Assembly (NCBI GenBank): GCA_031285565.1
Contig: JAITVY010000035.1
Coordinates: 62,001-126,000 of the forward strand
Reading direction: 5' to 3'
DNA length: 64,000 nt
Source of the DNA: Tannerella sp.
GTDB taxonomy: Bacteria; Bacteroidota; Bacteroidia; Bacteroidales; Tannerellaceae
In this document: positions 7,378 to 38,149 of the stretch, one piece after another
Position numbering within the stretch: position 1 is the stretch's first letter
How the letters are laid out: every line of letters starts with the position of its first letter
Notes under the pieces: generated by a model
What the model was told of the DNA's origin: nothing
Database searches by the model: none
What the model saw: the letters and a program-made list of their open reading frames with translations, nothing else
Translations under genes and position numbers: made by a program

Positions 7378-7380
7378 TAA

Positions 7381-8213: not shown

Positions 8214-9944
8214 ATGACCAACAAATGGAGTATTCGACCTCATACAGAAGAAGATCTACACCGTGCGAATATGCTGGCAGCCGAATTGGATATCAATCCA
8301 ATTATCGGGTTGTTGCTTGTTCAACGCGGAATTACCACAGTTGACGCTGCAAAAAAATTCTTCAGGCCGAGCCTTAATGATCTACATGATCCTTTTCTGA
8401 TGCCGGATATGCACAAGGCAGTGAAAAGGTTAAATAAAGCATTAGGTAATAAGGAAAAAATTTTAGTTTACGGAGATTACGATGTAGACGGTACGACAGC
8501 CGTATCGTTAGTTTATAAATTTTTGCGTCCATATTCATCGACGCTGGATTATTATATTCCGGACCGGTATGACGAAGGGTATGGGATTTCGTATAAAGGC
8601 ATTGACTATGCCAAAGAAAACGGGGTCAGCTTGATTATCGCTCTTGATTGCGGTATTAAAGCAATTGATAAAATTGACTATGCCAAAGAGAAAGGGATTG
8701 ATTTTATAATATGTGACCATCATATGCCTGACGACGAATTGCCGAAAGCTATAGCTGTACTGGATGCCAAACGTACGGATTCTACATATCCATATGAACA
8801 TTTATCCGGATGCGGCGTTGGTTTTAAATTCATGCAGGCTTTTGCTCAAAGTAATGATATCGCATTCTCCGAACTGGAGAATTTACTGGAGCTGACTGCT
8901 GTAAGCATTGCTTCCGATATTGTTCCTATTACAGGCGAGAACCGTATTTTGGCCTACTATGGACTAAAACAACTCAACAGCAATCCAAGTATCGGGTTCA
9001 AAGGTATTATTAACATATGCGGTTTAGCCGGCAAAGAAATAACCATCAGTGATATTGTATTCAAAATCGGCCCCAGGATCAATGCGTCCGGACGTATGAT
9101 GAATGGGAAAGAGGCTGTTGATTTACTGCTGGCAAAAGATATGCAAAGCGCCAGGGAAAAAAGCGAAAATATCAATCAATACAACGAAGACCGGCGCGAA
9201 TTAGACAAACGAATCACCGATGAAGCAAATGCTATTATTAATGAAATAAAAAACATTGAAGATCAAAAAGGAATCGTTGTCTATGATCCGACCTGGCATA
9301 AAGGAGTGATCGGAATTGTAGCTTCACGTCTGACTGAGAAATATTATCGTCCTTCGGTAGTATTAACAAAATCATCCGAGCTGATTACCGGATCTGCCCG
9401 CTCGATTATAGGTTTTGATATTTATAAAGCAATTGAAGCTTGTCGCGATTTATTGGAAAACTTCGGAGGTCATACATATGCTGCCGGACTTTCTTTACGG
9501 GAAGAAAACTTAGACGAATTCATCGAGTGTTTCATGAAATTAGCAGCCGAAGATATTGATCCGGAGCAAATGACTCCTCAAATTGATATAGATGCAGTCC
9601 TCGACCTGAAAGATATCAACAATAAATTCATGAATGAATTAAAAAAGATGAATCCTTTTGGTCCGAGTAATGAAAAGCCCGTATTTTGTACCTTACAGGC
9701 GCTTGATTATGGGACAAGTAAGAAAGTCGGGAAGGAACAGGAACACCTCAAACTCGAAATTATTGACCGGAAAGGTGGAGGCCCTATTCATGGCATTGCT
9801 TTCGGAATGCATCAGCATGCATCATATATTAAGGAAATGAATTCGTTTGACTTATGTTATACTATTGAAGAAAATACGTATAACGGTAATACGACATTGC
9901 AATTAATGGTGAAAGACATCCGGCCTTCCAGAACGGAAAACTAA
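8214..9944 (+). CDS. recJ: Single-stranded-DNA-specific exonuclease RecJ
   Basis: A 5'-3' exonuclease on single-stranded DNA used in recombination and repair. The DHH phosphoesterase motifs are all visible: DYDVDG (residues 88-93), ALDCG (143-147), DHH (168-170), and the SGCGVGFKF loop near 200. The DHHA1 region holds GSARS and GGHTYAAGLSL (near 400-425), and an OB-like C-terminal domain runs from about 450. The length of 576 is normal. It is followed 90 bp later by recQ in the same direction; RecJ and RecQ act together at stalled forks in other bacteria. The start ATGACCAAC is the first Met and fits the family's N-terminus. Confidence 0.96.
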   Translation: MTNKWSIRPHTEEDLHRANMLAAELDINPIIGLLLVQRGITTVDAAKKFFRPSLNDLHDPFLMPDMHKAVKRLNKALGNKEKILVYGDYDVDGTTAVSLVYKFLRPYSSTLDYYIPDRYDEGYGISYKGIDYAKENGVSLIIALDCGIKAIDKIDYAKEKGIDFIICDHHMPDDELPKAIAVLDAKRTDSTYPYEHLSGCGVGFKFMQAFAQSNDIAFSELENLLELTAVSIASDIVPITGENRILAYYGLKQLNSNPSIGFKGIINICGLAGKEITISDIVFKIGPRINASGRMMNGKEAVDLLLAKDMQSAREKSENINQYNEDRRELDKRITDEANAIINEIKNIEDQKGIVVYDPTWHKGVIGIVASRLTEKYYRPSVVLTKSSELITGSARSIIGFDIYKAIEACRDLLENFGGHTYAAGLSLREENLDEFIECFMKLAAEDIDPEQMTPQIDIDAVLDLKDINNKFMNELKKMNPFGPSNEKPVFCTLQALDYGTSKKVGKEQEHLKLEIIDRKGGGPIHGIAFGMHQHASYIKEMNSFDLCYTIEENTYNGNTTLQLMVKDIRPSRTEN

Positions 9945-22999: not shown

Positions 23000-25503
23000 A
23001 TGAGATTCTTTCTTTTGATAGTAATAAGTTGTATTATTCCCTTCCCTATCCTGGCACAAACGCTTAAAGGAAAATCATCAACGAGAAGGGAGAAGCCATT
23101 CCTTATGCAACAATTTATGTTGAAGAAATTGCATTGGGAATCGTAAGTGACGATCATGGAGAATTTCAAACCACTTTAGAAAAAGGTCAATATACATTTG
23201 TAGTATCATCGCTGGGACATGAAAAGAAAAAAATTCCGGTGACAATCTCAGAGAAAGAGACTACACTGGAAATAGTACTACAGGAAAAGATTTACCAGTT
23301 AAATGAAGTTACGGTAAAAGCCGGTGGAGAAGATCCGGCTTACCCGATCATGAGAAAAGCCATTGTTATGGCTCCTTTTTATTTGAACCAGGTAAGATCA
23401 TATCAGGCAAATATATACTTAAAAGGGACTCTCAAAGTGGATAAGATTCCGGCGCTCATCAGAAGACGAATTAAAGACCCCAGATTAAAAGATGCTGTTA
23501 ATAAATTATTTCTGATCGAATCGCAAAACAAAGTAACATTTACAGCACCTGATAAATATGATCAGGAAGTTGTAGCTTTATCCACTACCATCCCCCTTGA
23601 ACTGGATAATGATATTGCAATGGGAGTCATAAACAGCAATATTTATTCTCCGAATATCATGGCGATAGTTTCCCCTTTAGCTCCAAATGCTTTCTCACAT
23701 TATCAATACAAATTAGAGGGGATGAGTATGGAAGGTGAACACCTGGTAAACAAGATCAAGGTGATTCCTAAAAAGAACAACGCCCAGCTCGTCAGAGGAT
23801 ATATCTACATCGTTGAAAATTACTGGAATGTGCAGCAGGCTAATTTATCAGTCAGCCAGTCAGGCGTAACAGTACAATTCAATGTCGCCTATCATGAAGT
23901 ACGCCCGGGAGCATTTCTGCCGACCTCTTATGATATGAAAATGAATATGGATGTAATGGGAGTAAAAGGAGAAGCCAAATATTACTCCTCCGTACAATAC
24001 AACCGGGTAGATATTAATAGTCAATATACCATTCCTCCATCCAAAACAATTGACGAGCAGGTTACAAAAGAAAGTAAACAACTTGTCAAAGTTCAAAAGA
24101 AATTAAGAAATAAAGACTTAGAAGTAAAATCAAGGGATTCGGTATTCAGGATTACCCATGATACACTATCCTTACTCCGGGATTCGGTTTATTGGCTCGA
24201 AGTAAGACAACTGCCTTTGCGACCTGAAGAGATAATCAGTTATCAAATAAAAGACAGCCTGAAGTTAGTGGCAGACTCGATAAAACAGGCGGATTCCCTG
24301 CAGAACCGGACGTTCTCTACCTGGGTAAAAAATCTAGTACTCGGAGAGAAAATCAAACTACATGATAAATACACCATCGGCTATGGTGGCATTCTCAGAG
24401 CATGCCCGGAATATAATTTTGTTGACGGATTCTGGCTCGGACAAAAGTTCCATTTCGGGATTGACTTTTCAAAAAAACGGTCGCTGACAATTATTCCTTC
24501 GGTTCATTACCTGACAGCACGCAAAGAAATCAGTTGGCAGGTAGAAAATAGCTTCAAATATGATCCGCTAAGACATGGGAACCTGACTATCACTGCAGGT
24601 AATATGACTGCCGATTATGCCGGTACAAACGGAACCGGACGCTTTAATAACGCCTTATCATCCCTGTTATTTGCTGATAATACGGCTAAATTCTATCAGG
24701 CTAAGTTTGTTAACGCATCCCATCAGATTGATCTGGCTCATGCACTTCGGTTTACCGTAAATGTAAATTACGAAAAACGGAATACGCTCGATAACAATAC
24801 ATCATACAGCTTCTTCGGTGGCCGGCCAGAACCTAATAATCCGAATGAATTATTTCCCCCTATGCTAACACATACTTCATTCCGTACAGGGGTACAATTA
24901 CAATATACGCCGCGTTATCATTATCGCATTTGGAGGGGAGAAAAAATATATCTTTATTCAAACTACCCAACCTTCATGTTAAGTTACGAGAAAGGGATTC
25001 CCTTTAATAACGAGGACGCATCCTATGATAAATTAGAAGCAAGTATAAAGCAATCTATCCGATTGAATACTTTCAACCGAATACACTATACAATTGATGC
25101 AGGTATTTTCCCGTCTTCAAAAACAGTTTATCTGCCAGACTATAAGCATTTCGGTATAAATGAACCTTTTATAGCAGGAGGTTCATTGACAAATCGCTTT
25201 AATTTATTAAGTAATTATCAATATGTAACCAACGACAAATGGCTTCATGGCGACATAGAGCTCTCATCCGATTATTTATTACTAAAGAATATCCGGTTTA
25301 TGCAGGATTATCTGTTTGACGAATCACTACATCTGCGAAGCCTCTGGATTCCGGGACGGAATTATACGGAATTTGGATATTCAATTGGTTTTGGAGATAT
25401 AGCCCGTGTAGGCGTATTTGTCGGATTAGATAATGGAGCATATGATAAAATTGGATGTACAATCAGCCTACCAATCATCCAGGCATTGCTACGCAGGGAA
25501 TGA
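23000..25503 (+). pseudogene. DUF5686/carboxypeptidase-regulatory-like protein, frameshifted
   Basis: The N-terminal piece starts at ATG 23000 with a signal peptide (MRFFLLIVISCIIPFPILAQ) and then leaves frame. The rest continues in another frame from about 23075 to 25503. Adding one A to the AAAA at 23071-23074 restores a CarboxypepD_reg-like start (KGKIINEKGEAIPYATIYVEE) joined to GIVSDDHGEFQT, so one base is missing. The intact product would be about 834 residues: a beta-sandwich N-terminal domain, then a long DUF5686 region (LNEVTVKAGGEDPAYPIMRKA) and a C-terminal strand-rich part ending in SLPIIQALLRRE, presumably outer-membrane. It may be a real mutation or a sequencing error; the rest of the frame is open for 780 codons, which suggests it is recent. 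Confidence 0.8.
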
Positions 25504-25593
25504 AAAGTGAGATGCAAACCCATGCCTATGCGCGATAATGTCCCACAACTAAACAGTACAGGCCATTAAATAAGTGAAAACCAGTATAAAGAA

Positions 25594-26259
25594 TTACTTA
25601 TCTAACTCCTCTATCTGCCAATCAATAGCTCCGCGTCCGTTTTTTTTAAGAAAATCATTGGTTTGCGAAAAAGGTTTGGTTCCGAAAAATCCTCCCCCGG
25701 CTAAAGGTGATGGATGGGGCGCTTTCAATAAAAGATGTTGCGGATTGGTAACTCCTTTGGCTGCATCTATTGCATGGTTACCCCAAAGTATAAAAACCAA
25801 AGGCTTATCATAATTATTCAATATATCGAGAGCACGTTGCGTAAACTTAGCCCAGCCAAACTTTTTATGGCTACCGGCTTTTCCTTCCGTAACCGTCCAA
25901 CTGGTATTCATCATCAGTACTCCCTGTTTTGCCCACGAAGCCAGATAACCATGCTTAGGAGCATCGATACCTAAGTCTGATTTAAGCTCTTTGTAAATAT
26001 TCTTTAGGCTTGGAGGCGTTTTTATACCCGGTTTAACGGAAAAACTCAAACCATGCGCCTGCCCTGCCCCATGATAAGGATCCTGGCCAATAATCACAGC
26101 TTTTATATTTTCATAAGGACATAGGTCAAAACACGAGAACATCTCATCACGGGGTGGATATACCGTCCCGTTATCATAAGCCTCATCAACCTTTTCCATC
26201 AATTTTACAAAGTAATCTTCTTTCCTCTCCTGTTCTAAAAACTCTTTCCAGCTATTCAT
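25594..26259 (-). CDS. ung: Uracil-DNA glycosylase, family 1
   Basis: It removes uracil from DNA in base excision repair. All UNG motifs are present: the water-activating loop GQDPYHGAGQAHGLSFSV (catalytic Asp in GQDPYH, about 60-65), MNTSWTV-type strand, VFILWGNHA, and the DNA-intercalation loop HPSPLAGGGFFG (about 187-198). The length of 221 is normal. The gene is alone and converges with the DUF5686 gene on the left (about 90 bp between the ends). Confidence 0.97.
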   Translation of the reverse strand: MNSWKEFLEQERKEDYFVKLMEKVDEAYDNGTVYPPRDEMFSCFDLCPYENIKAVIIGQDPYHGAGQAHGLSFSVKPGIKTPPSLKNIYKELKSDLGIDAPKHGYLASWAKQGVLMMNTSWTVTEGKAGSHKKFGWAKFTQRALDILNNYDKPLVFILWGNHAIDAAKGVTNPQHLLLKAPHPSPLAGGGFFGTKPFSQTNDFLKKNGRGAIDWQIEELDK

Positions 26260-26307
26260 GATCTATTTTTTCCCAAAAATACTAATAAAAAATGATTCTC
26301 CGTTTGC

Positions 26308-28645
26308 TTACTCCCTCTTAATACTTTCTACCGGATTGGCATTGGCGGCCATATAGCTCTGCCAAAATACCGTAGCGAAAGAAATGAGAAGGCAGCCCAA
26401 ACCGGCGGCAATAAAGAAACTCGGATTCAGGTGTATGCGATAGGAGTAATCCGACAGCCATTCCCGCATCAAATACCAAGCGATCGGGGCAGCAATCACA
26501 AAGGCGATAAACACATAATTGAGGAAAGTAAAAATCAAGCGTTTCAATATCTGTATGTTGTTCGAACCAAAAACTTTTCGTACCCCGATTTCACGCGAAC
26601 GCTGCTGGATAAAGTAGGTCGACATGGCCAATAATCCCAGTAAAGAAAGCAAAACAGCGATAAAAGAAAATATTCCGACGATCTGAGATGTTCTTTTCTG
26701 CGAGGCAAAGGATTCTGCTACCTGTTGGTCAATAAAATTCCCTTTAAATTCAACACCCACTATCCGCTCGTACGTTTCCTTTACTGCTTTATATGCGTCA
26801 TAAGGATCACCCTGTACCTGTACCAGAATATTCCACGGATATAAATCTGCCGTTTTTTTTTATCTGTATAAGAACCGGCCTTTTCCCATGTAAAATATTA
26901 TTCAACTGGAAGTCTTTAAAAACTCCGGCTATCGGCACATCAGGCTCATAATATGAAAAAGTATGCGCATCCAAAGGCAGATTTTCTTCTTTCAGAGCGT
27001 ATTCGCTCAGGTAAAAGGCCTTGTCGGACGATACATGGTTCTCACGTATGATTTCAATACCCATCATCTCCATAAATGCAGAATCTACAGTCAACGTCTG
27101 AAAACCAATAGAACGCCCCTCAAATTCAATCGTATTATTATTTCCTCCGTTAAACGGAGTTCCTGCGGGAGTAGAGACCAAAGAAACCTGACTCAACTGA
27201 CGGAACTCATTAGCTAATGTCATAATCCGTTCTTTACTTTGAAGTTCCATTACGGATAGTTCAATAATATTTTTTGTATTATACCCCAAAGGAGCCTTGA
27301 TCAGATGATTTATCTGTGTAATCATCACAAAAGCCGCCGCTATAAGGGCAATGGTAATGCCATTCTGAAAAGTAATGAAAAACCGGCTGAATACCATTTT
27401 TGTTTTCTTCCGGAATCCTCCTTTCACAACATCAACCGCCTTGGTTTTAGAAATAAGAACAGCTGGCAGAAAACCAGTTATAAACCCGATTAAAATGATA
27501 GCAACAACAACTAATAATATATTTACAGGTGTTAACATTCCATATAAATCGATCGATGTATCCAATATCCTTTCGGCATAAGGACGAGCAGCAAATGCCA
27601 GAAGTGTTCCAATCAAAAAAGAAATAAATGTAAGTACCGTAGACTCTCCAATCATGCGGCTGAACAATTCCCACCAGGAAGAGCCCAGCAGACTGCGGGT
27701 TGCCATCTCTTTCGCACGAAATCCGGTCTGGGCAACGGTCAAATTGATATAATTGATGACCGCAAAAATCAATATAAGCAGCCCAACCGTAAGAAGAATA
27801 AGTACCAGTTTTTTATCGCCTTTATTATACATATATCCGTCCTGATGGGCATAATAAGCTTCGGTTATCGGAATGAATTGAACAGTCTCCACTACTTCTC
27901 TCTCATAAAACCAATACAGCCCCTTGAAATAATCGCGCATATCTTCCGCCTTAGAAGCAAGCGAACTTCCTTCCCGCTCTTTCAGGAAAAGATTGGTAGA
28001 TAAAGCATTATTAAACGTATTCCCATCCATATCCGAACGAAAATTACGCAGATTATCTGTACGAACAAGAATATCATTATATTTGATGACGGAGTTTCGG
28101 ATATCTTTCATTACCCCGTTAACGACAAATGACAACGTATCATTCATAACCAACGTTTTTCCAATGGGGCTCTCACGGCCAAACACTTTTCGGCCATACG
28201 ATTCCGAAATTACCACATCGCTCTTATTTGACATCACATAATCCTCATTACCAACGACTAAAGGAAATGAGAAAAAGCTAAAGAAATTACCGTTTACAAA
28301 TGAAACACTGGTATTCCATTTCTTGTTTTCAATTACGACAGGCACCTCATCCGATCCGGCAAATAGAATGCATCCGGTTACATAACAATAATCTTCAATC
28401 TCCGGATAACGTTCTTTTACTCGTTCGCCGATTCCATACGCAGACATATTCATTTCTTCATTACCCAACATATAAATACGTTCCGCATCCCGGTGAAAAC
28501 GGTCGGTCGTCAGTTCCTGCCGGGCATAAACAATAATCAGGATAACAAACATCAACGAAATCGAAAGTCCGAAAACCTCAATCGCCGTATACGCCTTATG
28601 GTGCCTGAGAAAACGTAGAAAAGAATTAAATTTAAATATATTCAT
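26308..28645 (-). pseudogene. FtsX/MacB-type ABC permease, frameshifted at A9
   Basis: A full-length Bacteroidetes ABC transporter permease of about 785 residues is split into two frames. The first part (28645 to 26807) has an N-terminal membrane helix, a periplasmic MacB-like domain and the first FtsX block (LTVGLLILIFAVINYINL). The second part (readable from about 26760 down to 26308) has the last FtsX block (RTSQIVGIFSFIAVLLSLLGLLA, REIGVRKVFGSN) and ends in NPVESIKRE. The break is in a run of nine T (26853-26861; A9 in the coding strand); eight would restore the frame. It may be a mutation, phase variation or an assembly error. No ATPase gene is adjacent. Confidence 0.85.
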
Positions 28646-28677
28646 AATTTATCGTTGTTTCGTTTTCCATTAAACAG

Positions 28678-28691
28678 GCAAACTTCATGCC
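28678..28691 (-). promoter_or_regulatory. Sigma-54 (-24/-12) promoter
   Basis: On the minus strand the sequence TGGCATGAAGTTTGC matches the sigma-54 consensus TGGCAC-N5-TTGC, with GG (28691-28690) and GC (28679-28678) separated by the required ten bases. Transcription would start near 28667, about 20 nt before the permease ATG. Sigma-54 promoters need an AAA+ activator bound upstream, which fits the large palindrome at 28745-28788. Confidence 0.65.
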
Positions 28692-28744
28692 ATACAATAT
28701 ATACAACTATACATCAACATCATACATGCATCATTCATAAAAAA

Positions 28745-28788
28745 CAATGTCAAAAAAATGGACAATATTGTCCATTTTTTTGACATTG
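28745..28788. promoter_or_regulatory. 44-bp perfect palindrome, probable activator site
   Basis: Two 22-bp arms meet with no loop at 28766/28767: the left arm starts CAATGTCAAAAAAATGG and the right arm is its exact reverse complement. The half-sites read TGTC-A7-TGGACA. It is centred about 100 bp upstream of the predicted sigma-54 transcription start, the usual place for an NtrC-type activator dimer. It is also just downstream of the GH92 stop, so it could in addition form an RNA hairpin at the end of that transcript, but the lack of a loop and of GC bases argues for a protein site. Confidence 0.65.
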
Positions 28789-28831
28789 ATAGAGCAATCA
28801 GGCAAAAGCAGTCTGATATTGATTATGTTGC

Positions 28832-31075
28832 TTAGAAATTATAAATTATAGTGCCTGCATTGACAAGCTCATCATGAGAGATAATAAATTTCTTTATATC
28901 TTTACCATCTATCATAACCGACTTTAACCTATATTCATCGGCGTTCGCACGATTTGTTTCAATCACGAGTTTATCCTTTTTATAAAATTTAGGATCAAGA
29001 TGTATGGTTACCTTATCAAATACAGGTGCCGTAACGGTATATTCAGGCTTTCCCGGGCAATGCGGATAAAATCCTATCATATTCATCAGCGCCCATGTCG
29101 ACATAGTTCCGGTATCGTCATTGCCCGGTATTCCTCCTGTTTCATTGGTAAAGTGTTTTGCCAATATATCACGAACGATCTTCTGGGTTCTCCATTCCTC
29201 ACCTTTCACTTGCGAAAACAAATGCGGATAAATGATATCCGGCTCATTGGAAACATCAAAATAACCATTATCGAATACGGATTGCAGTTTTTCAACAAAC
29301 TTTTTATTGCCGCCCATTAGTTTGATCAGTCCTGACACATCGTGCGGAACGGCAAATGTATAATTCCAGGCATTACCCTCGTGGAAACCCGGATTAGGCT
29401 CGAAATTAGCACCCAGGACCGGATCGAAAGGAGTCAGGAATGAACCGTCAGGCAGGATGGGACGGAAAGTACCATATTCTTTAGAATAGTAATGCTTATA
29501 TCCTAATGAACGCTCGTAAAACTTCTTTGCATTGTCTTTTTTACCCAATGCTTCGGCAAAGCGCCCTAAATTCCAGTCGGCAACATAATATTCCAAAGCA
29601 TGCGATACGGAATTATCGAACTCTCCTCTCAACGGTACATAACCGAACTTCATATAATCATCGTTATCAGGACGTAGTTTATTCTGAGGCCCCGGAGTAG
29701 TCGCAGACTTAATGAATGCCTCATAAGCGGTTTCAACATCAAAATCCCGTAATCCTTTCAACCATGCGTCTACGATTACCGGAATAGCCGGGTCACCCTC
29801 CATTGTATACGTCTCACGGCGATACAGTTCCCATTTCGGCATCCATCCATGTTCTTTATATATGTCAATCATAGAGCGCATCATATTCAACTGCCTGTCA
29901 GGATATAATAATGTCATTAACTGATGAACATTCCGATAGGTATCCCAAAGAGAGAAAACAGTATAGCGATTTTCTTTTGTAATACCGGTTTTAGCACTTT
30001 CCATCATCGGATATTCTCCATTCACATCCTGTAAGATATTTGGGTGTACTAACGTGTGATATAAAGCGGTATAGAAAACAGTTTTCTGTTCTTCCGTACC
30101 ACCTTCCACCTCGATCTTTGACAGGTCGCTATTCCACATTTCACGCGCTTTGGTATGTACTGCATCAAAGTCAAAACCAGGTTGTTCGGCATTTAAGTTT
30201 GCGCGGGCATTGTCGATGCTTACAAACGACACTCCTACCTGTACCTCAACCTGTTCATTTTGTGTTGTATTAAAGGTAAACCAGGCACCAACATCGTCAC
30301 CTGCGATTTCTTTTTCATATTCTGTATAAATCTTATACTTTCCGGCATCCTTATTCCACTCGTTTTCCCACTCATAACCCGGTCGTTGGAATTTCCAGTA
30401 TCCTGATTGTTCCGGTGTTTTATTTATACGGATTACAAAATAAATAGGGAATACTGCCTGATTTGCCGTATAACAGAAAGTACCCAGCAGCTTCATTCCT
30501 TCCATTTCGCGGTCGTTTACTTTCCGTAAATAAGCCCCGGTTTCGTTAGTCAGTCCTTCGCCCAGATTTAAAAGCACATTACTTTGTCCGGCAGGGAATG
30601 TAAAACGGGCCGTACCTACCCGTAACGAAGCGGATATTTCTGCTTTTACATTGTATTTATCAAGCATTACCGAATAATATCCGGGAGATGCTTTTTCGTC
30701 TTTATAGGTTGTTCCGTATTCTTTATAATCGACATTCAGTTCGCCTGTTGTCGGCATCAACAGCAAACTTCCCATATCAGGACAGCCTACACCGCTAAGG
30801 TTAACATGCGCAAACCCTGTAAGAAAGCTATTGGTATTAACATACGGAGTTGACCACCAGCCTTCATCTTTATTACGCCGGTTCATCTCAGAACCCATCA
30901 CATTAAAAGGGGTTACCGACATAAAACCTTGCGGGCACATAGCTCCCGGGTTGGTAGTACCGAAATTCGTGGTACCTATAAACGGATTCACATAATCCAC
31001 CGGCTTTTTTTGAGCGAATAAACTTGTTGTAAATAATAAGACTAAAACTAATAATGTACTTTTATGAGAATTCAT
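28832..31075 (-). CDS. GH92 family alpha-mannosidase
   Basis: A secreted glycoside hydrolase of family 92, calcium-dependent exo-alpha-mannosidases that trim N-glycans and mannans. A signal peptide (STLLVLVLLFTTSLFAQ) ends near residue 22. The N-terminal beta-sandwich begins DYVNPFIGTTNFG, a signature of the family. The (alpha/alpha)6 domain contains YTVFSLWDTYRNVHQL, EGNAWNYTFAVPHD and GNDDTGTMSTWALMNMIGFYPHCPG, which hold the conserved acidic residues. The length of 747 is typical. No SusCD pair is adjacent, so it seems to be outside a classical polysaccharide utilisation locus. The linkage specificity (1,2, 1,3 or other) cannot be judged from the sequence. Confidence 0.95.
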   Translation of the reverse strand: MNSHKSTLLVLVLLFTTSLFAQKKPVDYVNPFIGTTNFGTTNPGAMCPQGFMSVTPFNVMGSEMNRRNKDEGWWSTPYVNTNSFLTGFAHVNLSGVGCPDMGSLLLMPTTGELNVDYKEYGTTYKDEKASPGYYSVMLDKYNVKAEISASLRVGTARFTFPAGQSNVLLNLGEGLTNETGAYLRKVNDREMEGMKLLGTFCYTANQAVFPIYFVIRINKTPEQSGYWKFQRPGYEWENEWNKDAGKYKIYTEYEKEIAGDDVGAWFTFNTTQNEQVEVQVGVSFVSIDNARANLNAEQPGFDFDAVHTKAREMWNSDLSKIEVEGGTEEQKTVFYTALYHTLVHPNILQDVNGEYPMMESAKTGITKENRYTVFSLWDTYRNVHQLMTLLYPDRQLNMMRSMIDIYKEHGWMPKWELYRRETYTMEGDPAIPVIVDAWLKGLRDFDVETAYEAFIKSATTPGPQNKLRPDNDDYMKFGYVPLRGEFDNSVSHALEYYVADWNLGRFAEALGKKDNAKKFYERSLGYKHYYSKEYGTFRPILPDGSFLTPFDPVLGANFEPNPGFHEGNAWNYTFAVPHDVSGLIKLMGGNKKFVEKLQSVFDNGYFDVSNEPDIIYPHLFSQVKGEEWRTQKIVRDILAKHFTNETGGIPGNDDTGTMSTWALMNMIGFYPHCPGKPEYTVTAPVFDKVTIHLDPKFYKKDKLVIETNRANADEYRLKSVMIDGKDIKKFIISHDELVNAGTIIYNF

Positions 31076-31117
31076 ATATCAATGATTAATAGATTTCGTG
31101 ACTAATTTTATTATCTG

Positions 31118-31125
31118 CAAATATA
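31118..31125 (-). promoter_or_regulatory. -7 box for the GH92 gene
   Basis: The minus strand reads TATATTTG, a perfect TAnnTTTG box, about 45 bp upstream of the GH92 ATG. The predicted start is near 31114. No good -33 box is seen. Confidence 0.5.
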
Positions 31126-31418
31126 TTCATTTTCGACAACTTATACTTTATCCGTCCGGAATGTAAAAAAGCAATTATTAAAAAAAGTTCATTCTGCTTG
31201 ATTTAGCATAATCTAAATCAGACGTATATCTGCTCATTACTTAACGGGAGTGTTCTTTTGAGACAAGAAGCGTAAACAGATACCTCCCTCAAAAACCAAT
31301 CAAATAAAGATCGACTATTATAGAGAAAAAATAAAAATATTTCCGTCGCGCAAAAAGATTGCACACCGCCTCTTTTACTTTGCATCATCAAACAAAGAGA
31401 TCATTGAAATACTCAAAT

Positions 31419-31642
31419 AAAAACAAGTGCCGTAGAAAAGGGTTACTTCGCATTGTAACTGCCCGGGTCGCGGGTTCGAGTCCCGTCACTTCCTCCCAAA
31501 GCAAAATTATTGAATAAATTGAATTTATCTTTTTATGATTCATTTTCAACTTTCAATTCTCAATTTTCAATTAAATTAGGGAGTGTAGCTCAGTAGGTAG
31601 AGCAGGATATAGTCTCTTTTTGCCTGTCGCCTTGTTTTTTTT
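31419..31642 (+). ncRNA. Y-RNA-like ncRNA candidate with permuted tRNA mimic (unit 1)
   Basis: The ends pair: A-run plus CAAG (31419-31427) with CTTG plus T8 (31631-31642), so the 3' end looks like an intrinsic terminator. Inside, AAAAGGG-[TT]-ACT (31436-31447) pairs with AGTCTCTTTT (31611-31620) around a 2-nt bulge. Then come tRNA parts in permuted order: a T-arm GCGGG-TTCGAGT-CCCGT (31470-31486), the 3' acceptor strand CACTTCC (31487-31493), an 85-nt linker, the 5' acceptor strand GGGAGTG (31579-31585, seven pairs including one G-U), and a D-arm GCTC-AGTAGGTA-GAGC (31588-31603). TGCCC (31460-31464) and GGATA (31605-31609) form a weak anticodon-like stem. Bacterial Y RNAs of the YrlA type combine a closing helix with such a tRNA mimic; assignment to that class is inference. 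Confidence 0.6.
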
Positions 31643-31650
31643 AATCCTAT

Positions 31651-31788
31651 AAGCAGAATGTCGTAGAAAAGAGATACTTCGACTCCAACTCAGGGGAGGA
31701 ATAGCGAAGCCGTAAAACCGGCAAGGCTATCCGGTTCGACTCCGGCAATGTCAAGCCCCGTTTCTTTTTTCGCCTGTTACTTCTGCTT
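31651..31788 (+). ncRNA. Second Y-RNA-like ncRNA candidate (unit 2)
   Basis: It shares 20 of 23 bases with unit 1 around TGYCGTAGAAAAGRGWTACT and the closing helix. AAGCAGAA (31651-31658) pairs perfectly with TTCTGCTT (31781-31788), with the same bulged C on the 3' strand as unit 1. AAAAGAG-[AT]-AC (31667-31677) pairs with GTTTCTTTT (31760-31768). GGGG (31693-31696) pairs with CCCC (31756-31759). Inside lie a hairpin ATAGC...GCCG-TAAAAC-CGGC...GCTAT (31701-31730) and a T-arm-like hairpin CCGG-TTCGACT-CCGG (31731-31745). It has no D-arm within the helix. Base pairs differ from unit 1 in a compensating way, which supports a conserved RNA structure. Confidence 0.55.
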
Positions 31789-31799
31789 CTCTATATAAC

Positions 31800-31826
31800 G
31801 CCCTTGTAGCTTAAAAGGACAAAGCT
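31800..31826 (+). other. Orphan tRNA 5'-half-like sequence
   Basis: GCCCTTG-TA-GCTT-AAAAGGACA-AAGC-T reads as the acceptor 5' strand, positions 8-9, and a 4-bp D-arm with the GG of the D-loop, but no anticodon arm or 3' half follows. Its acceptor strand could pair at five of seven positions with CAATGTC (31746-31752) behind the T-arm of unit 2, again in permuted order. It may be part of a larger unit 2, a third decayed copy, or a tRNA fragment. Confidence 0.45.
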
Positions 31827-31904
31827 GCGGAAAAAGGTTTTAACTAAACATTTCATATAATCAGATTGTTTTTAATTGAAATTAATGCAAAATCCAGGAT
31901 CAAT

Positions 31905-32855
31905 ATGAAAAAAGATTTCTTCTTTGTTTTTATGCTGATGTTTGTACTCTTATTGAGTAATCAGGGAATTAGTTATGCACAGATGAAAGGAGATCATTTG
32001 TTGGGAGATTATGGTTTGGCTGCAGGAACTCAGGCTCCTCCTTCTATTTTAGTTGCAGTGCCCATATATGGTTACAATGCATCAAATTTCAGGAATAGCG
32101 ATGGAGATAAAAAAGACGCACCGCATCTTGGGGCTTATCTTGTGGGAGTCGGAGGAACTGTCGTAACCAATTTCAAGATCCTGAATGCCAATTATGGAGC
32201 AGGATTGTTATTTTGTTTTGCCAGTAATAAAATTGACGGGACATACATCCAAGCCGATAATTCTATAGCCTTTAGCGATACATATGTCCAGCCCATTCAA
32301 TTAGGCTGGCATTGGAAAAGGGCGGATCTAACAGTTGGTTACGCCTTATATATGCCAACAGGAAAATATGAATATAAAGGTGACGATAATAGCGGATTGG
32401 GGATGTGGACAAATGAATTTTCAGTAGGAGGAACGTGGTATATGGACAAGAAACGATCTTTTAATTTATCGACCATGGCATATTATGAGATTCATAGCAA
32501 GAAAAAAGATACAGACATACGTGTTGGAAATATTTTAACCCTTGAAGGCGGATTAGCGAAAACTTTTGAGATTCCGATCTCCAAATCACAGGTTCCAATG
32601 GCAATCAATGTAGGGCCTGTTTATTATGCACAGTTCAAAATAACAAATGACGATATACCTGTTGGGGAGCTTGATTTTACCGGAGATAAAGACCATATAT
32701 ATGGTTTGGGAGTGGAAGCTAATATTATGTATCCTAAGACTTTCACGACCCTATCCGCCAGATGGTTGGGCGAAATGGGTGCAAAAAACAGGTTTCAGGG
32801 AAATACTTTTATGATTACGATCGCACAACCGATAAAGTTCTTCACCAAAAAGTAA
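31905..32855 (+). CDS. SphA/MetA-pathway-type outer membrane protein
   Basis: A predicted outer-membrane beta-barrel of 316 residues, similar to the 'phenol degradation meta pathway' (SphA, Phenol_MetA_deg) family, which is named from linked genes and probably acts in uptake of hydrophobic compounds. I start at the ATG 31905, preceded by CCAGGA, which gives a clear signal peptide (FFFVFMLMFVLLLSNQGISYAQ). The mature protein has alternating strands such as LGWHWKRADLTVGYALYMPTGKYEYKG and NEFSVGGTWYMD, and ends in FMITIAQPIKFFTKK. It is a single gene after the ncRNA region. No degradation genes are nearby, so the role here is not known. Confidence 0.8.
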   Translation: MKKDFFFVFMLMFVLLLSNQGISYAQMKGDHLLGDYGLAAGTQAPPSILVAVPIYGYNASNFRNSDGDKKDAPHLGAYLVGVGGTVVTNFKILNANYGAGLLFCFASNKIDGTYIQADNSIAFSDTYVQPIQLGWHWKRADLTVGYALYMPTGKYEYKGDDNSGLGMWTNEFSVGGTWYMDKKRSFNLSTMAYYEIHSKKKDTDIRVGNILTLEGGLAKTFEIPISKSQVPMAINVGPVYYAQFKITNDDIPVGELDFTGDKDHIYGLGVEANIMYPKTFTTLSARWLGEMGAKNRFQGNTFMITIAQPIKFFTKK

Positions 32856-32993
32856 CTTGATACTTCCGGATCAAAGTAAATAATTACTCTGTTTTAAGAG
32901 AAAACAGTCAAAACAAGAAATAAAAGAACAGGGTCGGGTGCTTTTCGAATGCAAAAGCATTAGTAAAACCTGATGGATGTAGCATTCAATTTA

Positions 32994-33569
32994 TTAAGAC
33001 CCTTTCTTCACCTGACCATCCTTCAAATAATAAATCGCATCTCCTTCAGGACAGACGGCAACACCCTGGTCATCAAAATCTAACCGGTGACCATATTCAC
33101 TTACCCAACCGGTCTGATGTGCCGGATTTCCAACAACCAAAGCATAGGGATCTACATCTTTTGTCACAACGGCCCCCGCCCCAATCATGGCGTACGCCCC
33201 GATACGATTACCACAAACAATCGTAGCATTGGCCCCAATTGAAGCGCCTCGTTCTACAAATGTTTCCTTAAACTGATTTCTTCGCGAAATAGCACTACGG
33301 GGGGTAATCACATTAGTAAACACACAACTGGGACCCAAGAATACATCATCTTCACAGATCACACCCGTATAAACAGATACGTTATTTTGTATTTTTACCC
33401 GGTTACCGATAACAACACCGGGAGAGATAACAACATTCTGCCCAATCGAGCAAGACTGTCCGATCGTACATCCTCCCATAATATGCGAGAAATGCCAGAT
33501 CTTTGTTCCGTCACCAATTGTACATCCATCATCAATAACTGCCGACTCATGCGCTTGAAAAGTATCCAT
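32994..33569 (-). CDS. Hexapeptide-repeat N-acetyltransferase (WbpD/WlbB-like)
   Basis: A left-handed beta-helix acyltransferase. Hexapeptide repeats (CTIGDG, CTIGQSCSIGQN, VVIGNRVKIQN, DDVFLGPSC, ASIGANATIV, AMIGAGAVVTKDV) run from residue 10 to 155. The segments KIWHFSHIM, NVSVYTGV, and NPAHQTGWVSEYG closely resemble WbpD, which acetylates UDP-2-acetamido-3-amino-glucuronate in O-antigen synthesis. The length of 191 fits. The partner genes (WbpA/B/E) are not in this window, so the exact substrate is inference. It is a single gene on the minus strand; a short filler separates it from the RsmI-like gene. Confidence 0.85.
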   Translation of the reverse strand: MDTFQAHESAVIDDGCTIGDGTKIWHFSHIMGGCTIGQSCSIGQNVVISPGVVIGNRVKIQNNVSVYTGVICEDDVFLGPSCVFTNVITPRSAISRRNQFKETFVERGASIGANATIVCGNRIGAYAMIGAGAVVTKDVDPYALVVGNPAHQTGWVSEYGHRLDFDDQGVAVCPEGDAIYYLKDGQVKKGS

Positions 33570-33661
33570 AATCGTTTATTTTTGCTCTTCTATTTTCCCT
33601 ACTTAACTACAAAGTTGCGAAGCAACTGATAACTACTTGACTACTTTGACTACTGATTGCA

Positions 33662-34366
33662 TTATTTATAAATCAGAAAGATTGTCGGTTTCTTATTTAA
33701 ATCCGGCATCTTGTTTTTCCATTCTTTAACAGGAAGCGTACGAATAAATTCGTCCTCACATGTAATATTGGAAGCAATGCACAATTTCGTCGTCGGCCGG
33801 CATATGCGTATCAACTCCTCCAGCAGTTTCTGATTCCGGTAAGGAGTCTCGATAAAAAGCTGTGTTTGCCCCTCCGTATAAATCCGCGACTCAAGTGCTT
33901 TAATACGTTCAATACGTGCCGGTGCATCAATCGGCAGGTAACCATGAAAAGCAAAACTTTGCCCGTTAAATCCCGAAGCCATCAATGCCATTAAGATAGA
34001 AGATGGACCAACCAGTGGCACTACATGATATTTTTTCTGCTGTGCAATCGCTACGATATCAGCACCGGGATCGGCTATCGCCGGACATCCGGCTTCCGAC
34101 AGCAGTCCCACCGATTCCCCATGAGCCAAAGGCGTCAGATATCCGGCAATCTGTTCCGGTGAAGTATGCTTATTCAATTCATAAAACGTCAGTTCATCAA
34201 TCTCAATCGAAGGTTCGGTCTTTTTCAGAAACCGACGTGCCGAACGAATATTCTCTACAATAAAATGTTTTATTTGCAAAATAACTTCGCGATTATATGA
34301 CGGCAACACCCTATGGTGATCCGTTTCGCCTAATGTCACTGGAATCAGAAAAAGAGCCGGATGCAT
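33662..34366 (-). CDS. SAM-dependent methyltransferase, tetrapyrrole-methylase/RsmI-like
   Basis: A TP-methylase-fold protein of 234 residues. Motifs are ALFLIPVTLGE (N-terminal strand), ESVGLLSEAGCPAIADPGADIV (SAM-binding, near 85-105) and the VVPLVGPSSILMALMASGFNGQSFAFHGYLP block near 118-148. These resemble RsmI, which 2'-O-methylates C1402 of 16S rRNA. Bacteroidetes often carry a second RsmI-like paralog with a shifted N-terminus (here starting after the usual LYVVGTPIGN motif is replaced by LIPVTLGE), and this looks like that form. The substrate is therefore uncertain. Confidence 0.8.
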   Translation of the reverse strand: MHPALFLIPVTLGETDHHRVLPSYNREVILQIKHFIVENIRSARRFLKKTEPSIEIDELTFYELNKHTSPEQIAGYLTPLAHGESVGLLSEAGCPAIADPGADIVAIAQQKKYHVVPLVGPSSILMALMASGFNGQSFAFHGYLPIDAPARIERIKALESRIYTEGQTQLFIETPYRNQKLLEELIRICRPTTKLCIASNITCEDEFIRTLPVKEWKNKMPDLNKKPTIFLIYK

Positions 34367-34483
34367 AAATTTAATTACGTTCTTTTTCTACAAAGATAGT
34401 GCAAGTCGAGAGCAATACAAAACGAACTTGTTTGTTTTTATTGCCGAGGCGCAGCCTATTTTCGCTTTGTGAAACAAATATAT

Positions 34484-34491
34484 TACTTTTG
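34484..34491 (+). promoter_or_regulatory. -7 box for the rRNA methyltransferase gene
   Basis: TACTTTTG is a perfect TAnnTTTG box with the start near 34495. It decides the translation start: the in-frame GTG at 34469 lies upstream of the transcript, leaving ATG at 34511. Confidence 0.6.
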
Positions 34492-34510
34492 TCGTAAACA
34501 AACCGTAAAT

Positions 34511-35923
34511 ATGGATTTCCCGAACGAATTTATCGTACGAACCAAACTGTTACTGGGAGAAAACTTCCCGGCTCTGGAAGATGCTTTGCAGAAAGAAGCG
34601 CCTGTCAGTATCCGGTTGAATTCAAACAAACTATCAGCAACACCCTCCTATGAAAAAGTAAGTTGGTGTAATACGGGATATTACCTGCAGGAACGTCCGT
34701 CATTCACTTTTGATCCGTTATTTCATGCAGGATGCTATTACGTTCAGGAAGCATCATCGATGTTTCTGGAACAAGCTATCAAACAATATATACCCAATCC
34801 GGCAATCTGCCTGGATTTATGTGCAGCGCCAGGAGGTAAATCAACACACTTAGCCAGTATATTACCTACAGGCAGCTTACTGGTAAGCAATGAAGTAATT
34901 CGTAGCCGGTCAGTCATCTTAGCAGAAAATACAGCCAAATGGGGAATGCCGGATACAATCGTAACCAGCAATGACCCGAAAGAAATCGGGAAGCTTACCC
35001 ACTTATTTGATGTAATCGTTGCCGATCTGCCATGCTCCGGAGAAGGAATGTTCCGGAAAGATCCGGAAAGCCGTAACGAATGGAGCATTGCTAACGTACA
35101 GCTATGTGCTACCCGTCAACGGCGTATTATACACGATATATGGAATGCACTTAAGCCTGGAGGACTACTGATCTACAGCACCTGTACTTTCAACAGGGAG
35201 GAAAATGAAGAAAACATTCAATATCTGGCAAATACACTCAATGCCGAAGCATTACCAATTTCTGTCGGAAATGAGAGTCTGATTTATCATGCAATACAGT
35301 CTGATCTTCCGGCATACCGCTTTCTGCCACATTTGACAAAAGGTGAAGGATTCTTTATTGCGATATTACGCAAACCGGAAAGCGAAAAACAACAGATCTC
35401 TTCAAAAAACAAAAAGAAACAAAAGCAAGCACCACTACCTGTTCCGGCAACGGTAAAAGATTGGATTACCGGGTATGATCGCTATCAGTTTTTTACGTCT
35501 TCGAACGGAAGCTTGCAAGCCATACCTGTAGATCATTTTGATACATACCAATTTATAACAGAAACATTACATGTGATCTCAGCAGGAATCCCGGTCGGGG
35601 AAGTCAAAGGGAAAGACCTGGTTCCCACACCGGCATTGGCATTTAATTTAGCATTCAACCAAATGTCATTTACAAGAGTTGATCTGCAATGGGAAGAAGC
35701 GATTCGCTTTTTACAAAAAGAAGCACTTACACTTCCTGCTGATATACCCAAAGGATTTACACTGATTACCTTCCGGAATCAGCCACTGGGCTTTGTAAAA
35801 AACATTGGTAATCGTGCCAACAATCTATATCCGCAGGAATGGCGTATTCGAAGCAAGCATTTGCCGGAGACTATGCCTAATATTCTACAATCGAACAACG
35901 CCCTAGTTTATAATACATTATAG
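34511..35923 (+). CDS. rRNA cytosine-C5-methyltransferase (RsmF/RsmB-like)
   Basis: A NOL1/NOP2/Sun (NSUN) class m5C methyltransferase. The catalytic pair of cysteines is visible in VADLPCSGEGMFRKDP (motif IV) and YSTCTFNREENEE (motif VI); the SAM-binding DLCAAPGGKSTHLA lies near 105-118. C-terminal to the Rossmann domain (from about 320) are an extension with ADIPKGFTLITFRNQPLGFVKN and a PUA-like end, as in RsmF (YebU). The start at 34511 gives MDFPNEFIVRTKLLLG, fitting the family. The length is 470. The substrate is probably 16S rRNA, by family. Confidence 0.9.
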   Translation: MDFPNEFIVRTKLLLGENFPALEDALQKEAPVSIRLNSNKLSATPSYEKVSWCNTGYYLQERPSFTFDPLFHAGCYYVQEASSMFLEQAIKQYIPNPAICLDLCAAPGGKSTHLASILPTGSLLVSNEVIRSRSVILAENTAKWGMPDTIVTSNDPKEIGKLTHLFDVIVADLPCSGEGMFRKDPESRNEWSIANVQLCATRQRRIIHDIWNALKPGGLLIYSTCTFNREENEENIQYLANTLNAEALPISVGNESLIYHAIQSDLPAYRFLPHLTKGEGFFIAILRKPESEKQQISSKNKKKQKQAPLPVPATVKDWITGYDRYQFFTSSNGSLQAIPVDHFDTYQFITETLHVISAGIPVGEVKGKDLVPTPALAFNLAFNQMSFTRVDLQWEEAIRFLQKEALTLPADIPKGFTLITFRNQPLGFVKNIGNRANNLYPQEWRIRSKHLPETMPNILQSNNALVYNTL

Positions 35924-36085
35924 CATTGCATATTACCCACCATTCAACCCCTTGCATGAGACATCTCATAATTACAATATTCTCAGCACTGATGTGATTG
36001 GGCTATGGCCGATTTTCTCTTCAATCGGAATGACGATTGTCTTCCCCTTTCTTCTTTTTCCTTTCTCCTTTTGACTTATTCTTCT

Positions 36086-38149
36086 TCAGGAGCCAGGGGC
36101 AAAGTTAAGGGCAAGTCTGTTTTTAACGCGAATATTTTCATAAATAGCCTCTTGCGCCCGTACCGGCTTTTCTGCATTCCTTTTAAAGACATTCTGTAGA
36201 TGTTCATCAATAAAACATGCTTTTATATTATCCCGAAGCTGTATACCGAGTACATCAATAATCTCTTGCTTGATTTTATCGTCTAATATAGGAAAAGCAG
36301 TCTCTATACGCCGGTTCAAATTCCGGTTCATCCAGTCCGCCGAAGTCATGTACAAGTCTTCAGCCCCGTCATTGTAAAAATACCAGATACGCGAATGTTC
36401 CAAAAATACATCTACGATACGCGTTATACGAATATTCCGGCTATATGGCTGATTGGGAACCAGGCAACAAATACCACGTACAATTAAATCGATCTCTACT
36501 CCATTTTCCGAAGCATTATACAATTCATCAATCATCCGTTTATCATGAAGACCGTTCATTTTTAAAATGATTCGTCCTTTACGGCCGGCTTTCACATGAT
36601 CTGTTTCATGCCGGATCATCCGGATCAGTTCAGGCACCATATTAAACTGAGCAACTAACAAATGGTTGAAGTCCGGAGCCTGTTCTTTCTGCTCCAGTAC
36701 ATCAAAAACACGGTTTATATCCGTAATAATATCTTTATTACAAGTCAGAAGAGCCATATCTGAATAGATTTTAGCTGTCTTTTCATTAAAATTCCCTGTA
36801 CTCAAATAGGCAAAATCTTCTTTTTCCGGATGATTGCGAAGGATAACAGCAACCTTGGCATGTACCTTTAAACCCGGCAGGCTATAAATAATTTTAATAC
36901 CGGATTGTTCCATCTTCTCTGCTGTACTTAAATTATTTTTCTCATCAAAACGGGCTTTCAGCTCAACAAAAACAGTTACTTTTTTCCCATTCTGTGCAGC
37001 GCTGATCAATGTATTTATCACTGCCGAATTTTCCGCTACCCGGTATTGTGTTATCTTTATCTCATCGACTTCCGGATCAAAAGCAGCTTCCATTAAAAAC
37101 CGGATCAGATAATCGAACGACTGATATGGAAACTGCAACAATACATCCCGTTTTTCCACTGCCTTAAACATCGCCCCCACTTCATCCAGATACGGTACAC
37201 GCATCGGAGGAGGAACCACCTGCATAAGTGAAGTTCCAAACGGATTAGGCAACTTGCTTAAATCCTGCAGGTTCATATACCGCCCGCCTACCACAAGGTC
37301 ATCCATTTGAATACCAAAGGCTTCACAAACAAAAGCCAGGAAATCATCCGGCATATCCCGATCATACATAAACCGGCTTAAAGCCCCGATTTTTCGTTTC
37401 TCTACCTTCTTCCGGATCGATTGAAGCATATCTTTCGAATCTTCTTCATCCAGGTAAATATCAGCATCACGTGAGATTTTAATGCTATAACAACCATCAA
37501 TGATATATCCTGGGAAAACATTACTCAGATTAGCGCGGATCACATCATCAATAAACATATAATAATATACGCCTTCATGCGATGGTAAAGGAATAAAACG
37601 AGGCACTTTAGAATGCGGGATTTTTATTAATACATAATAAGGCTCATCTGTCATTTTCTTATACATACGAACCACCAGATAAAGTCGCTGGTCACGAATA
37701 AATGTACGGATACCGGCCTGAATCGTCACCGGAGATAGAAAAGGAAACACTTCCTCATTAAAATAACTCTGTATAAATTCTTCATGGAATGGCTTTGGCT
37801 GATGAGACTGATATAAGTAAACATGTTGCCGGCGCAACTCCGCCAAAATACCATCATTAAATACCTGATAGAATATTTTCTGCTGACGGTTCACTTCTTT
37901 AGTAATCGCTTCAAGAACCTCTTCGGCTTTCTCGGAACTTTCTTCCGTAAAAGTCTTTTTCAGGATAGCTCCCCGGTGTTCGGCAACCCGGATTTCATAA
38001 AACTCTTCCAGATTGGAAGCATAAATCGAAAGAAACCGAATCCGCTCATAAACAGGAAGTAACTCATCCGCCGCCTCCAACAATACACGATAATTAAAGG
38101 ATAACCAACTTATATCGCGCTTAAAATATGTATACTTATCTTTTTCCAT
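36086..38149 (-). CDS. ppk1: Polyphosphate kinase 1
   Basis: It makes polyphosphate reversibly from ATP. The N-terminal domain opens with FKRDISWLSFNYRVLLEA; the two catalytic phospholipase-D-like domains carry LKVHAKVAVILRN (autophosphorylated His in KVHAK, about 430), YLSTGNFNEKTAKIYSD, and LKMNGLHDKRMIDELYNAS. The second His lies in VFLEHSRIWYF. The length of 687 is normal for PPK1. It is a single gene, divergent from the phosphodiesterase at 38251. The gene stands next to no exopolyphosphatase. Confidence 0.95.
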   Translation of the reverse strand: MEKDKYTYFKRDISWLSFNYRVLLEAADELLPVYERIRFLSIYASNLEEFYEIRVAEHRGAILKKTFTEESSEKAEEVLEAITKEVNRQQKIFYQVFNDGILAELRRQHVYLYQSHQPKPFHEEFIQSYFNEEVFPFLSPVTIQAGIRTFIRDQRLYLVVRMYKKMTDEPYYVLIKIPHSKVPRFIPLPSHEGVYYYMFIDDVIRANLSNVFPGYIIDGCYSIKISRDADIYLDEEDSKDMLQSIRKKVEKRKIGALSRFMYDRDMPDDFLAFVCEAFGIQMDDLVVGGRYMNLQDLSKLPNPFGTSLMQVVPPPMRVPYLDEVGAMFKAVEKRDVLLQFPYQSFDYLIRFLMEAAFDPEVDEIKITQYRVAENSAVINTLISAAQNGKKVTVFVELKARFDEKNNLSTAEKMEQSGIKIIYSLPGLKVHAKVAVILRNHPEKEDFAYLSTGNFNEKTAKIYSDMALLTCNKDIITDINRVFDVLEQKEQAPDFNHLLVAQFNMVPELIRMIRHETDHVKAGRKGRIILKMNGLHDKRMIDELYNASENGVEIDLIVRGICCLVPNQPYSRNIRITRIVDVFLEHSRIWYFYNDGAEDLYMTSADWMNRNLNRRIETAFPILDDKIKQEIIDVLGIQLRDNIKACFIDEHLQNVFKRNAEKPVRAQEAIYENIRVKNRLALNFAPGS

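Follow-up and report, generated by a model that had tools for sequence, protein, structure and literature searches.

Chen (2014) reportedly found Y RNAs in the vicinity of Ro60 in more than 250 bacteria and phages, each species having at least one that is tRNA-like, so that the presence of more than one Y RNA at a locus is not new. The roles of bacterial Y RNAs have been studied in few species. The basal stem of YrlA is described as binding Rsr and its tRNA-like end as binding PNPase, with modification of the RNA by DusA and TruB; YrlA, Rsr and PNPase form the complex RYPER (PMC8394870). The Salmonella operon rsr-yrlBA-rtcBA is under RtcR and is described as activated by a cleaved-RNA signal (PMC7790460, PMC9879122). 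In Bacteroides thetaiotaomicron, which belongs to the same phylum as the organism considered here, Ro60 particles are stated to contain bacterial Y RNAs (PMC11277228, citing Greiling 2018). In humans Ro60 is an autoantigen, and its bacterial counterpart has been discussed as possibly triggering lupus (PMC11277228).

The window is the whole 64-kb stretch of DNA that was analysed (contig C50, positions 62001-126000) in a genome of 5.0 Mb and 83% completeness. It contains two adjacent units, u1 and u2, which very probably constitute a tandem Y RNA pair docking on a distant Ro60, presenting its modules and sharing an operator with Ro60, RlaP and RtcB. This assignment is made by comparison, that is, from structure, homology, the Ro60 gene in the genome and a shared promoter pattern. 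The arrangement resembles the Salmonella operon in bringing a Ro60 relative under common control with two Y RNAs and RtcB (PMC9879122, PMC7790460), and differs from it in that several sites carry one operator pattern, that RlaP is added and that the candidate regulator is a WYL protein. It resembles the Deinococcus RYPER in the proposed role of Y RNA, which is to tether a nuclease to the Ro60 ring (PMC8394870, PMC7790460), but the Bacteroidota arrays described below carry several different modules.

u1 (31421-31637, plus strand) is a class I unit, a Y RNA of the YrlA type with a permuted tRNA mimic as judged by Rfam alignment, covariation and the covariance model R1. Its ends are closed by helix A (31421-31427 with 31631-31637), which is likely the Ro60-end stem, and helix B (31435-31442 with 31614-31621), which is flanked by conserved GYCGUA and UACUUCG in the class I alignment of 44 units. 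The 3' strand of helix A runs into a T8 tract and overlaps part of it (31631-31642 together; T8 is 31635-31642). Enclosed by these helices are a tRNA-like T-arm with the loop sequence UUCGA (31470-31486; stem 31470-31474/31482-31486; 99.5% of its alignment cells are paired), the 3' acceptor strand (31487-31493), and the 5' acceptor strand (31579-31585) with U8-A9 and the D-arm (31586-31603; 31579-31603 in all). The T-arm and D-arm are both regular, there is no anticodon arm, and the order of the module (T, acceptor, D arms) is permuted. All seven acceptor positions pair, with one G-U, across an A/T-rich apical insert of 85 nt (31494-31578), and the acceptor loops of the remaining 43 rows of the alignment are all shorter. 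A preliminary description of this DNA had placed the tRNA parts and the T8 tract in the same way, and these placements stand. Its single closing helix of the ends (AAAAGGG/CTCTTTT) corresponds to helix B; helix A had been missed, and the ends form two helices around a conserved internal loop.

Among the open reading frames of at least 80 codons listed for 25000-38000, none overlaps u1. Neither ARAGORN nor Rfam at its cut-off calls a tRNA at u1, and the sole call in the window is a tRNA-Thr elsewhere. Folding of the single sequences is mildly unusual (for u1, z is -2.2 and 7 of 200 shuffles are equally good; for u2, z is -2.1), and it is the comparison of relatives that decides whether u1 is real.

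A DNA search of the genome with u1 and u2 returns 41 matches: u1 and u2 themselves, unit b (one of the units behind Ro60, see below) and 39 short repeat matches. The short repeat, which resembles TTCAATTCTCAATTTTCAATT, is dispersed, occurring at 31538-31577 of the window and at 39 other places; the acceptor inserts of u1 and of unit b each hold one copy.

The comparison was made with a class I alignment of u1 and 43 units hand-picked out of 76; this structure and that of class II were drawn by hand from the two alignments. Both sides change in 28 of the 33 class I pairs (helix A 7/7, helix B 8/8, acceptor stem 7/7, T-stem 4/5). Pairing extends to 95.7% of 1412 cells, as against 70.9% in shuffled alignments and 37-52% with slid partners. 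The covariation score is 0.666 against 0.202 shuffled, with none of 500 shuffles as high. Covariation is found in five of the six helices; the D-stem is nearly invariant.

Rfam YrlA (RF02553) aligns to u1 over its full length (114 positions) at 31.1 bits, with an E value of 1.5e-4 in 1 kb; its cut-off is 69 bits. R1 was built from class I units with u1 in the training set and u2 excluded. Over the window it assigns 115.1 bits to u1 (a training member) and 44.7 bits to the untrained u2 (E 5.8e-10). Two units behind the Ro60 gene of the same genome, also untrained, score 81.1 bits (unit a) and 115.1 bits (unit b). When R1 is applied to 198 genomes of the order, 174 contain some match at E 0.001 or less, while TROVE, the Ro60 domain, is found in three. 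Among the R1 matches listed, with 16 candidates scored per genome, those of at least 57.9 bits occur only in these three TROVE genomes; the best match elsewhere in the 198 genomes has 54.7 bits. In 68 TROVE loci of viral contigs (L218-L285; untrained), 40 matches exceed 57.9 bits, in 32 loci, some of these matches being near-duplicates. Some viral TROVE loci (for example L229) sit among many tRNA genes.

The Rfam cut-off for YrlA is narrow, since it is reached in none of 12 viral TROVE loci tested, which were picked from the 68 for R1 scores of 90-119 bits. The Rfam YrlA consensus matches 20 Rhizobium records among plasmids. In the one record inspected, the RNA lies behind a TROVE gene with rtcR upstream; it scores 98.4 bits with Rfam YrlA, above the cut-off, and 64.9 bits over the full length of R1 (E 4e-16), a value not far above the R1 background in that tandem tRNA genes reach 54.7. 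A second RNA beside it scores 60.3 bits. The same consensus finds no match in E. coli genomes at E 1e-5, and matches five Gordonia records among phages at E 6e-4. In one Gordonia phage R1 gives 54.9 bits, within the range of tandem tRNAs, about 1 kb behind the gene of a Ro-like protein.

u1 is judged, by this comparison of sequences, to be a Y RNA of the YrlA kind even though the Rfam cut-off excludes it, because a model made from class I units finds the Rfam-scored Rhizobium YrlA beside TROVE. The preliminary description is borne out on this point by the full-length YrlA alignment, the covariation and the Rhizobium match. With YrlA (RF02553) u1 shares a closing stem of the ends with an internal loop, a permuted module lacking the anticodon arm, and TROVE in the genome. 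It differs in its score (31.1 bits against a cut-off of 69), in the 85-nt insert at the acceptor end, in an additional segment that separates UACUUCG from the T-arm, and in its location, which is not beside Ro60. The suggestion of a previously undescribed class was too strong for u1. Rfam supplies no family of their own for class II units (of which u2 is one) or for the 23S-like units described below in the stretches scanned (for the 23S-like units, one locus), giving there weak matches to YrlA, tmRNA and unrelated families.

u2 (31652-31787, plus strand) is a class II Y RNA by alignment of its class, covariation and its R1 match. It has the same closing stem as u1, enclosing a module of a GGGG/CCCC stem, a long hairpin, a T-arm and a possible pseudoknot. 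The class II alignment comprises 31 units (of 35 listed, u2 being first). Both sides change in 25 of 36 pairs, 93.0% of cells are paired, and the covariation score is 0.484 against 0.208 shuffled (equalled in 0 of 500 shuffles). A helix that joins the bases 3' of UACUUCG to the strand 3' of the T-arm crosses the GGGG/CCCC stem; 59.8% of its cells are paired and both sides change in four of four pairs. Aligned sequences thus make a pseudoknot likely in class II units; in u2 it would pair 31681-31684 with 31749-31752. A stray D-arm-like stretch, TTGTAGCTTAAAAGGACAAAGC, lies behind u2 at 31799-31830, where R1 calls no third unit.

No TROVE match is found in the 64-kb window, in agreement with the preliminary description, which also proposed a search for TROVE elsewhere in the genome. 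That search locates it on the window's own contig: C50:236088-236816 matches TROVE about 142 kb downstream of u1. The protein has 504 residues with TROVE and Ro60 vWA domains and is similar in sequence to the solved TROVE proteins 9l5y and 9kop. Three units with the 5' motif of u1 (a, b and c) stand behind this Ro60 gene, where YrlA is usually found (beside rsr/ro60); u1 itself does not occupy that location. Another unit, at C50:245695 (locus L050), precedes two RlaP genes and RtcB, which lie 8-12 kb beyond Ro60. Motif-bearing units in the genome thus number six, of which two are in the window, three stand behind Ro60 and one precedes RlaP/RtcB. The weakest (C50:237949) is unscored by the unit finder and is assigned by motif and T-loop. 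Unit b has an insert at the acceptor site of u1, longer than that of u1; the idea that its CCA-like sequence is a real tRNA 3' end was dropped.

The order of u1 and u2, class I followed by class II, recurs in several Ro60 arrays (for example L057, L059, L066 and L068), and no class II unit is seen behind the Ro60 gene of the own genome. The u1-u2 pair therefore looks like part of an array that has been moved or copied away with an operator of its own. In another genome, G093, two class I units stand among unrelated genes on a contig other than that of TROVE.

Tandem tRNA genes also match R1. Outside the TROVE genomes 27 loci with R1 scores of 48-55 bits were checked; 24 span two neighbouring tRNAs and three lie at a single called tRNA, and at nine of the 27 the best match covers the whole model. 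Two same-kind tRNAs in tandem naturally supply the elements in the order seen here (T-arm, pairing acceptor strands, D-arm). The tRNA part therefore proves little when taken alone, and pairing of the seven acceptor positions is by itself not rare, arising also at such junctions. The notion that u1 is left over from tandem tRNA genes, with the 3' half of the first and the 5' half of the second, also draws on the agreement of its T half with the tRNA-Asp of the genome at 24 of 27 positions. In a comparison with 31 distinct tRNAs of the genome (30 loci of 40 matches), which looked for an origin from a single own tRNA, tRNA-Asp is nearest to the T half and tRNA-Gly to the D half (21 of 28). Against the tandem-tRNA notion stand the absence of a tRNA call and of anticodon arms at u1, covariation at all 15 pairs of helices A and B, both of which u2 repeats, the R1 scores of 115 bits for u1 (trained) and for its untrained sister b, and the position of units behind Ro60. 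The case for u1 is carried by the outer stems, the scores and the location of units beside Ro60. Helices A and B refute the tandem-tRNA account of present-day u1, which retains next to no probability. Junctions of tandem same-kind tRNA genes (L183-L209) do resemble a permuted tRNA and are a possible source of permuted mimics. A permuted tmRNA, or a permuted but genuine tRNA gene, is hardly more than conceivable: Rfam tmRNA_permuted (RF04321) aligns the T-arm and acceptor of u1 at 21.3 bits, but its cut-off is 47 and the match covers only positions 36-95 of 213; the anticodon arm is lacking, and in the aligned homologues a loop joins the acceptor strands, so that there would be no free CCA end unless it were cut.

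Two further explanations accept the RNA and concern its standing. That u1 is an orphan Y RNA with a partner other than Ro60, as the preliminary description considered, is now quite improbable: although u1 lies about 142 kb from Ro60, and G093 likewise has two units off the TROVE contig, the genome has a Ro60 gene followed by three related units, u1 and that gene are both preceded by the promoter pattern, and units are recognized only together with TROVE in 61 genomes (motif search with two mismatches). Because of the 85-nt insert the acceptor stem of u1 is open at its end, which could spoil the mimic or signal decay of the u1 copy. The pair might be a decaying duplicate, copied out of the Ro60 array, with u1 disabled by its insert, which contains the dispersed repeat. 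Unit b, beside Ro60, has a longer insert in the same place. Nevertheless, pairing persists in the helices of u1, the promoter pattern has been retained, and u2 is an intact unit whose class is not seen after the Ro60 gene of this genome, all of which makes decay an unlikely account, and a tandem Y RNA pair serving the distant Ro60 remains the preferred reading.

The distribution of units was followed in two ways. A 23-base motif, with up to two mismatches, was sought in the own genome and 60 relatives. Motif matches occur in 10 of these 61 genomes and TROVE matches in six; the six are the same in which motif matches precede a T-arm or a matching 3' arm. By eye, the motif matches in G013, G017, G036, G059 and on contig C141 of G016 look like chance, having neither T-arm nor 3' arm, and in L048, the one of these stretches given to the unit finder, no unit is reported. 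Six Ro60 proteins from five genomes were also aligned, and the alignment served as query against named bacterial genomes, and the best 80 of 385 relatives were taken.

The unit finder combines the 5' motif with a complementary 3' arm on the plus strand and allows modules of up to 260 nt. In 89 sequences it returns 382 units at scores of at least 15, and 42 when these sequences are reversed; this noise is not subtracted, which makes unit counts per locus somewhat too high. The 382 include double counts (L060, L063, L081 and L103 appear to be records of G034, G016, G024 and G011), which are kept in the counts and excluded from the alignments; L216 (G229) appears identical to L065, a training member of R1. 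The best 80 of 385 Ro60 loci contain 369 units, of which 327 lie within 3 kb downstream of Ro60 and on its strand (236 at 0-1 kb and 91 at 1-3 kb); for five the Ro60 frame is unplaced. At least one unit is found in 78 of these 80 loci and at least two in 75 (median four, maximum ten). Of the two loci without units, L130 breaks off some 200 bases after Ro60, and L064 yields nothing with either the finder or R1. In the same 80 loci, RtcB is found by tblastn in 33 and RlaP in 11-12, within at most 8 kb; the own-locus neighbours Band7, PARG and NADAR are found in none. G034 has two tandem Ro60 genes (L044:5030-6874 and 7203-8717), the first encoding 110 more residues than the second.

Upstream of u1, at 31349-31382 on the plus strand, comparison and a pattern match identify a putative operator-promoter of the Y RNA pair, consisting of CGCAAAAAGATTGCAC and a TACTTTG box. 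DNA resembling TRCGCAAAAANNNTGCGYA, followed after about 10 bases by TANCTTTG, lies upstream of u1, Ro60, the L050 Y RNA and RtcB. The pattern CGCAAAAANNNNGCRYN{9,16}WNCTTTG has four occurrences in the own assembly (before u1, Ro60, the L050 Y RNA/RlaP and RtcB) and five in the 60 relatives; the reversed pattern does not occur in the 61 genomes. It was written after six of the nine matches had been seen (all four sites of the own genome and the two at Ro60 in G034), leaving three as independent: the Hen1 gene of G034, the RtcB gene of G020 and an aminotransferase gene of G013, the last probably by chance. The TROVE genomes G011, G016, G024 and G028 have no match, so even within the genus the pattern is not universal. 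The gene in G034 that has this pattern in common with Ro60 and RtcB encodes a Hen1-type RNA methyltransferase (L138:1501-2905). Hen1 is not found in the own genome with one query.

A WYL-domain protein gene adjoins the operator in G034 and G020. The own genome has an ortholog of 77% identity on the window's contig (C50:213411-214442), a 346-codon open frame with no operator pattern before it; the two stop codons reported by the search are placed before the start of this frame. A close WYL protein (65-100% identity) is found only in the three genomes with operator sites at RNA-repair genes, and G014 and G053 have distant ones (37% and 41%). WYL proteins are described as predicted regulators of defence genes (PMC4012209). 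The WYL-domain protein may bind the shared operator and is a candidate for its regulator.

Across the Ro60 arrays the closing stem is combined with diverse modules. Simple patterns separate the D-arms into a generic TAGCTCA type (84 units in 60 sequences), Gln-like (14 units), Glu-like (5), Leu/Ser/Cys-like (3) and another type (2); 19 sequences have at least two types. These type names are partly assumed; in comparison with the own tRNAs, the Gln-like and Cys-like names fit best. Seven units contain a 23S rRNA-like stretch: L097:11608-11829, L120:11299-11516, L133:11549-11766, L088:12455, L105:10355, L085:11010 and L056:14559. Five are in Chryseobacterium loci, one in a Prevotella MAG and one in a MAG named Limnohabitans. 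One of them shares 34 identical bases with the 23S rRNA of one E. coli strain (E 8e-7). The matches of all seven fall inside 1908-1954, numbered from the 3' end of the gene, a stretch that we take to be the surroundings of helices 69-71; the L056 match is weak (E 0.008), at the level of chance matches of other units. A conserved module of about 76 nt, TTAGACCTCAAAATCTAAGAAAAGTGCAAT and similar, is also seen in Chryseobacterium arrays (L083:11599, L088:12310, L093:12339, L097:11195, L102:12034, L108:11645 and L133:11142). Judged from sequence, then, Ro60 genes of Bacteroidota mostly precede several units, tRNA-like with varied D-arms, or with the u2 module, or 23S-like.

How the pair might act can be outlined, with transcription, Ro60 binding, partner, regulator and function being what we infer. 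u1 and u2 would probably be transcribed from one promoter. Their common closing stem (helix A, internal loop, helix B and UACUUCG) would bind the Ro60 ring encoded about 142 kb away, and the module at the opposite end would be the face shown by the particle: a permuted tRNA for u1, and for u2 a module with a T-arm and a likely pseudoknot. If YrlA is a guide, proteins that handle tRNA may recognize the tRNA-like face, which may also tether a partner such as PNPase to Ro60, and the particle may steer decay or repair of damaged structured RNA. The operator common to Ro60, RlaP and RtcB, perhaps read by the WYL protein, would turn the parts on together.

u1 and u2 can thus be thought of as Y RNAs of a known kind with new features: the detached pair, the exchangeable modules and the shared operator. 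In the portions of the open-licence literature on Ro60/RtcB systems that were covered, no report was found of several module types, a 23S-like module, a detached pair or a WYL operator. A wider and tentative idea, which we consider possible but rather doubtful, is that such arrays form a panel, in which Y RNAs with one docking stem and exchangeable RNA imitations are switched together with repair genes by a WYL regulator and presented as bait or adaptor. If this were true, the imitations would comprise generic, Gln-, Glu- and Cys/Leu-like permuted tRNAs, 23S 1908-1954 and a pseudoknotted T-arm module, and the panel would offer every class of translation RNA to the proteins acting on that class, be they toxins, modification enzymes, nucleases or ligases. 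Co-switching would then be with RtcB, RlaP and, in one relative, Hen1, and the window pair would be a detached part of the panel. An operator joining Ro60, RtcB, RlaP and the detached pair, taken with arrays that imitate several RNAs, leads to predictions on what Ro60 particles may handle, and when.
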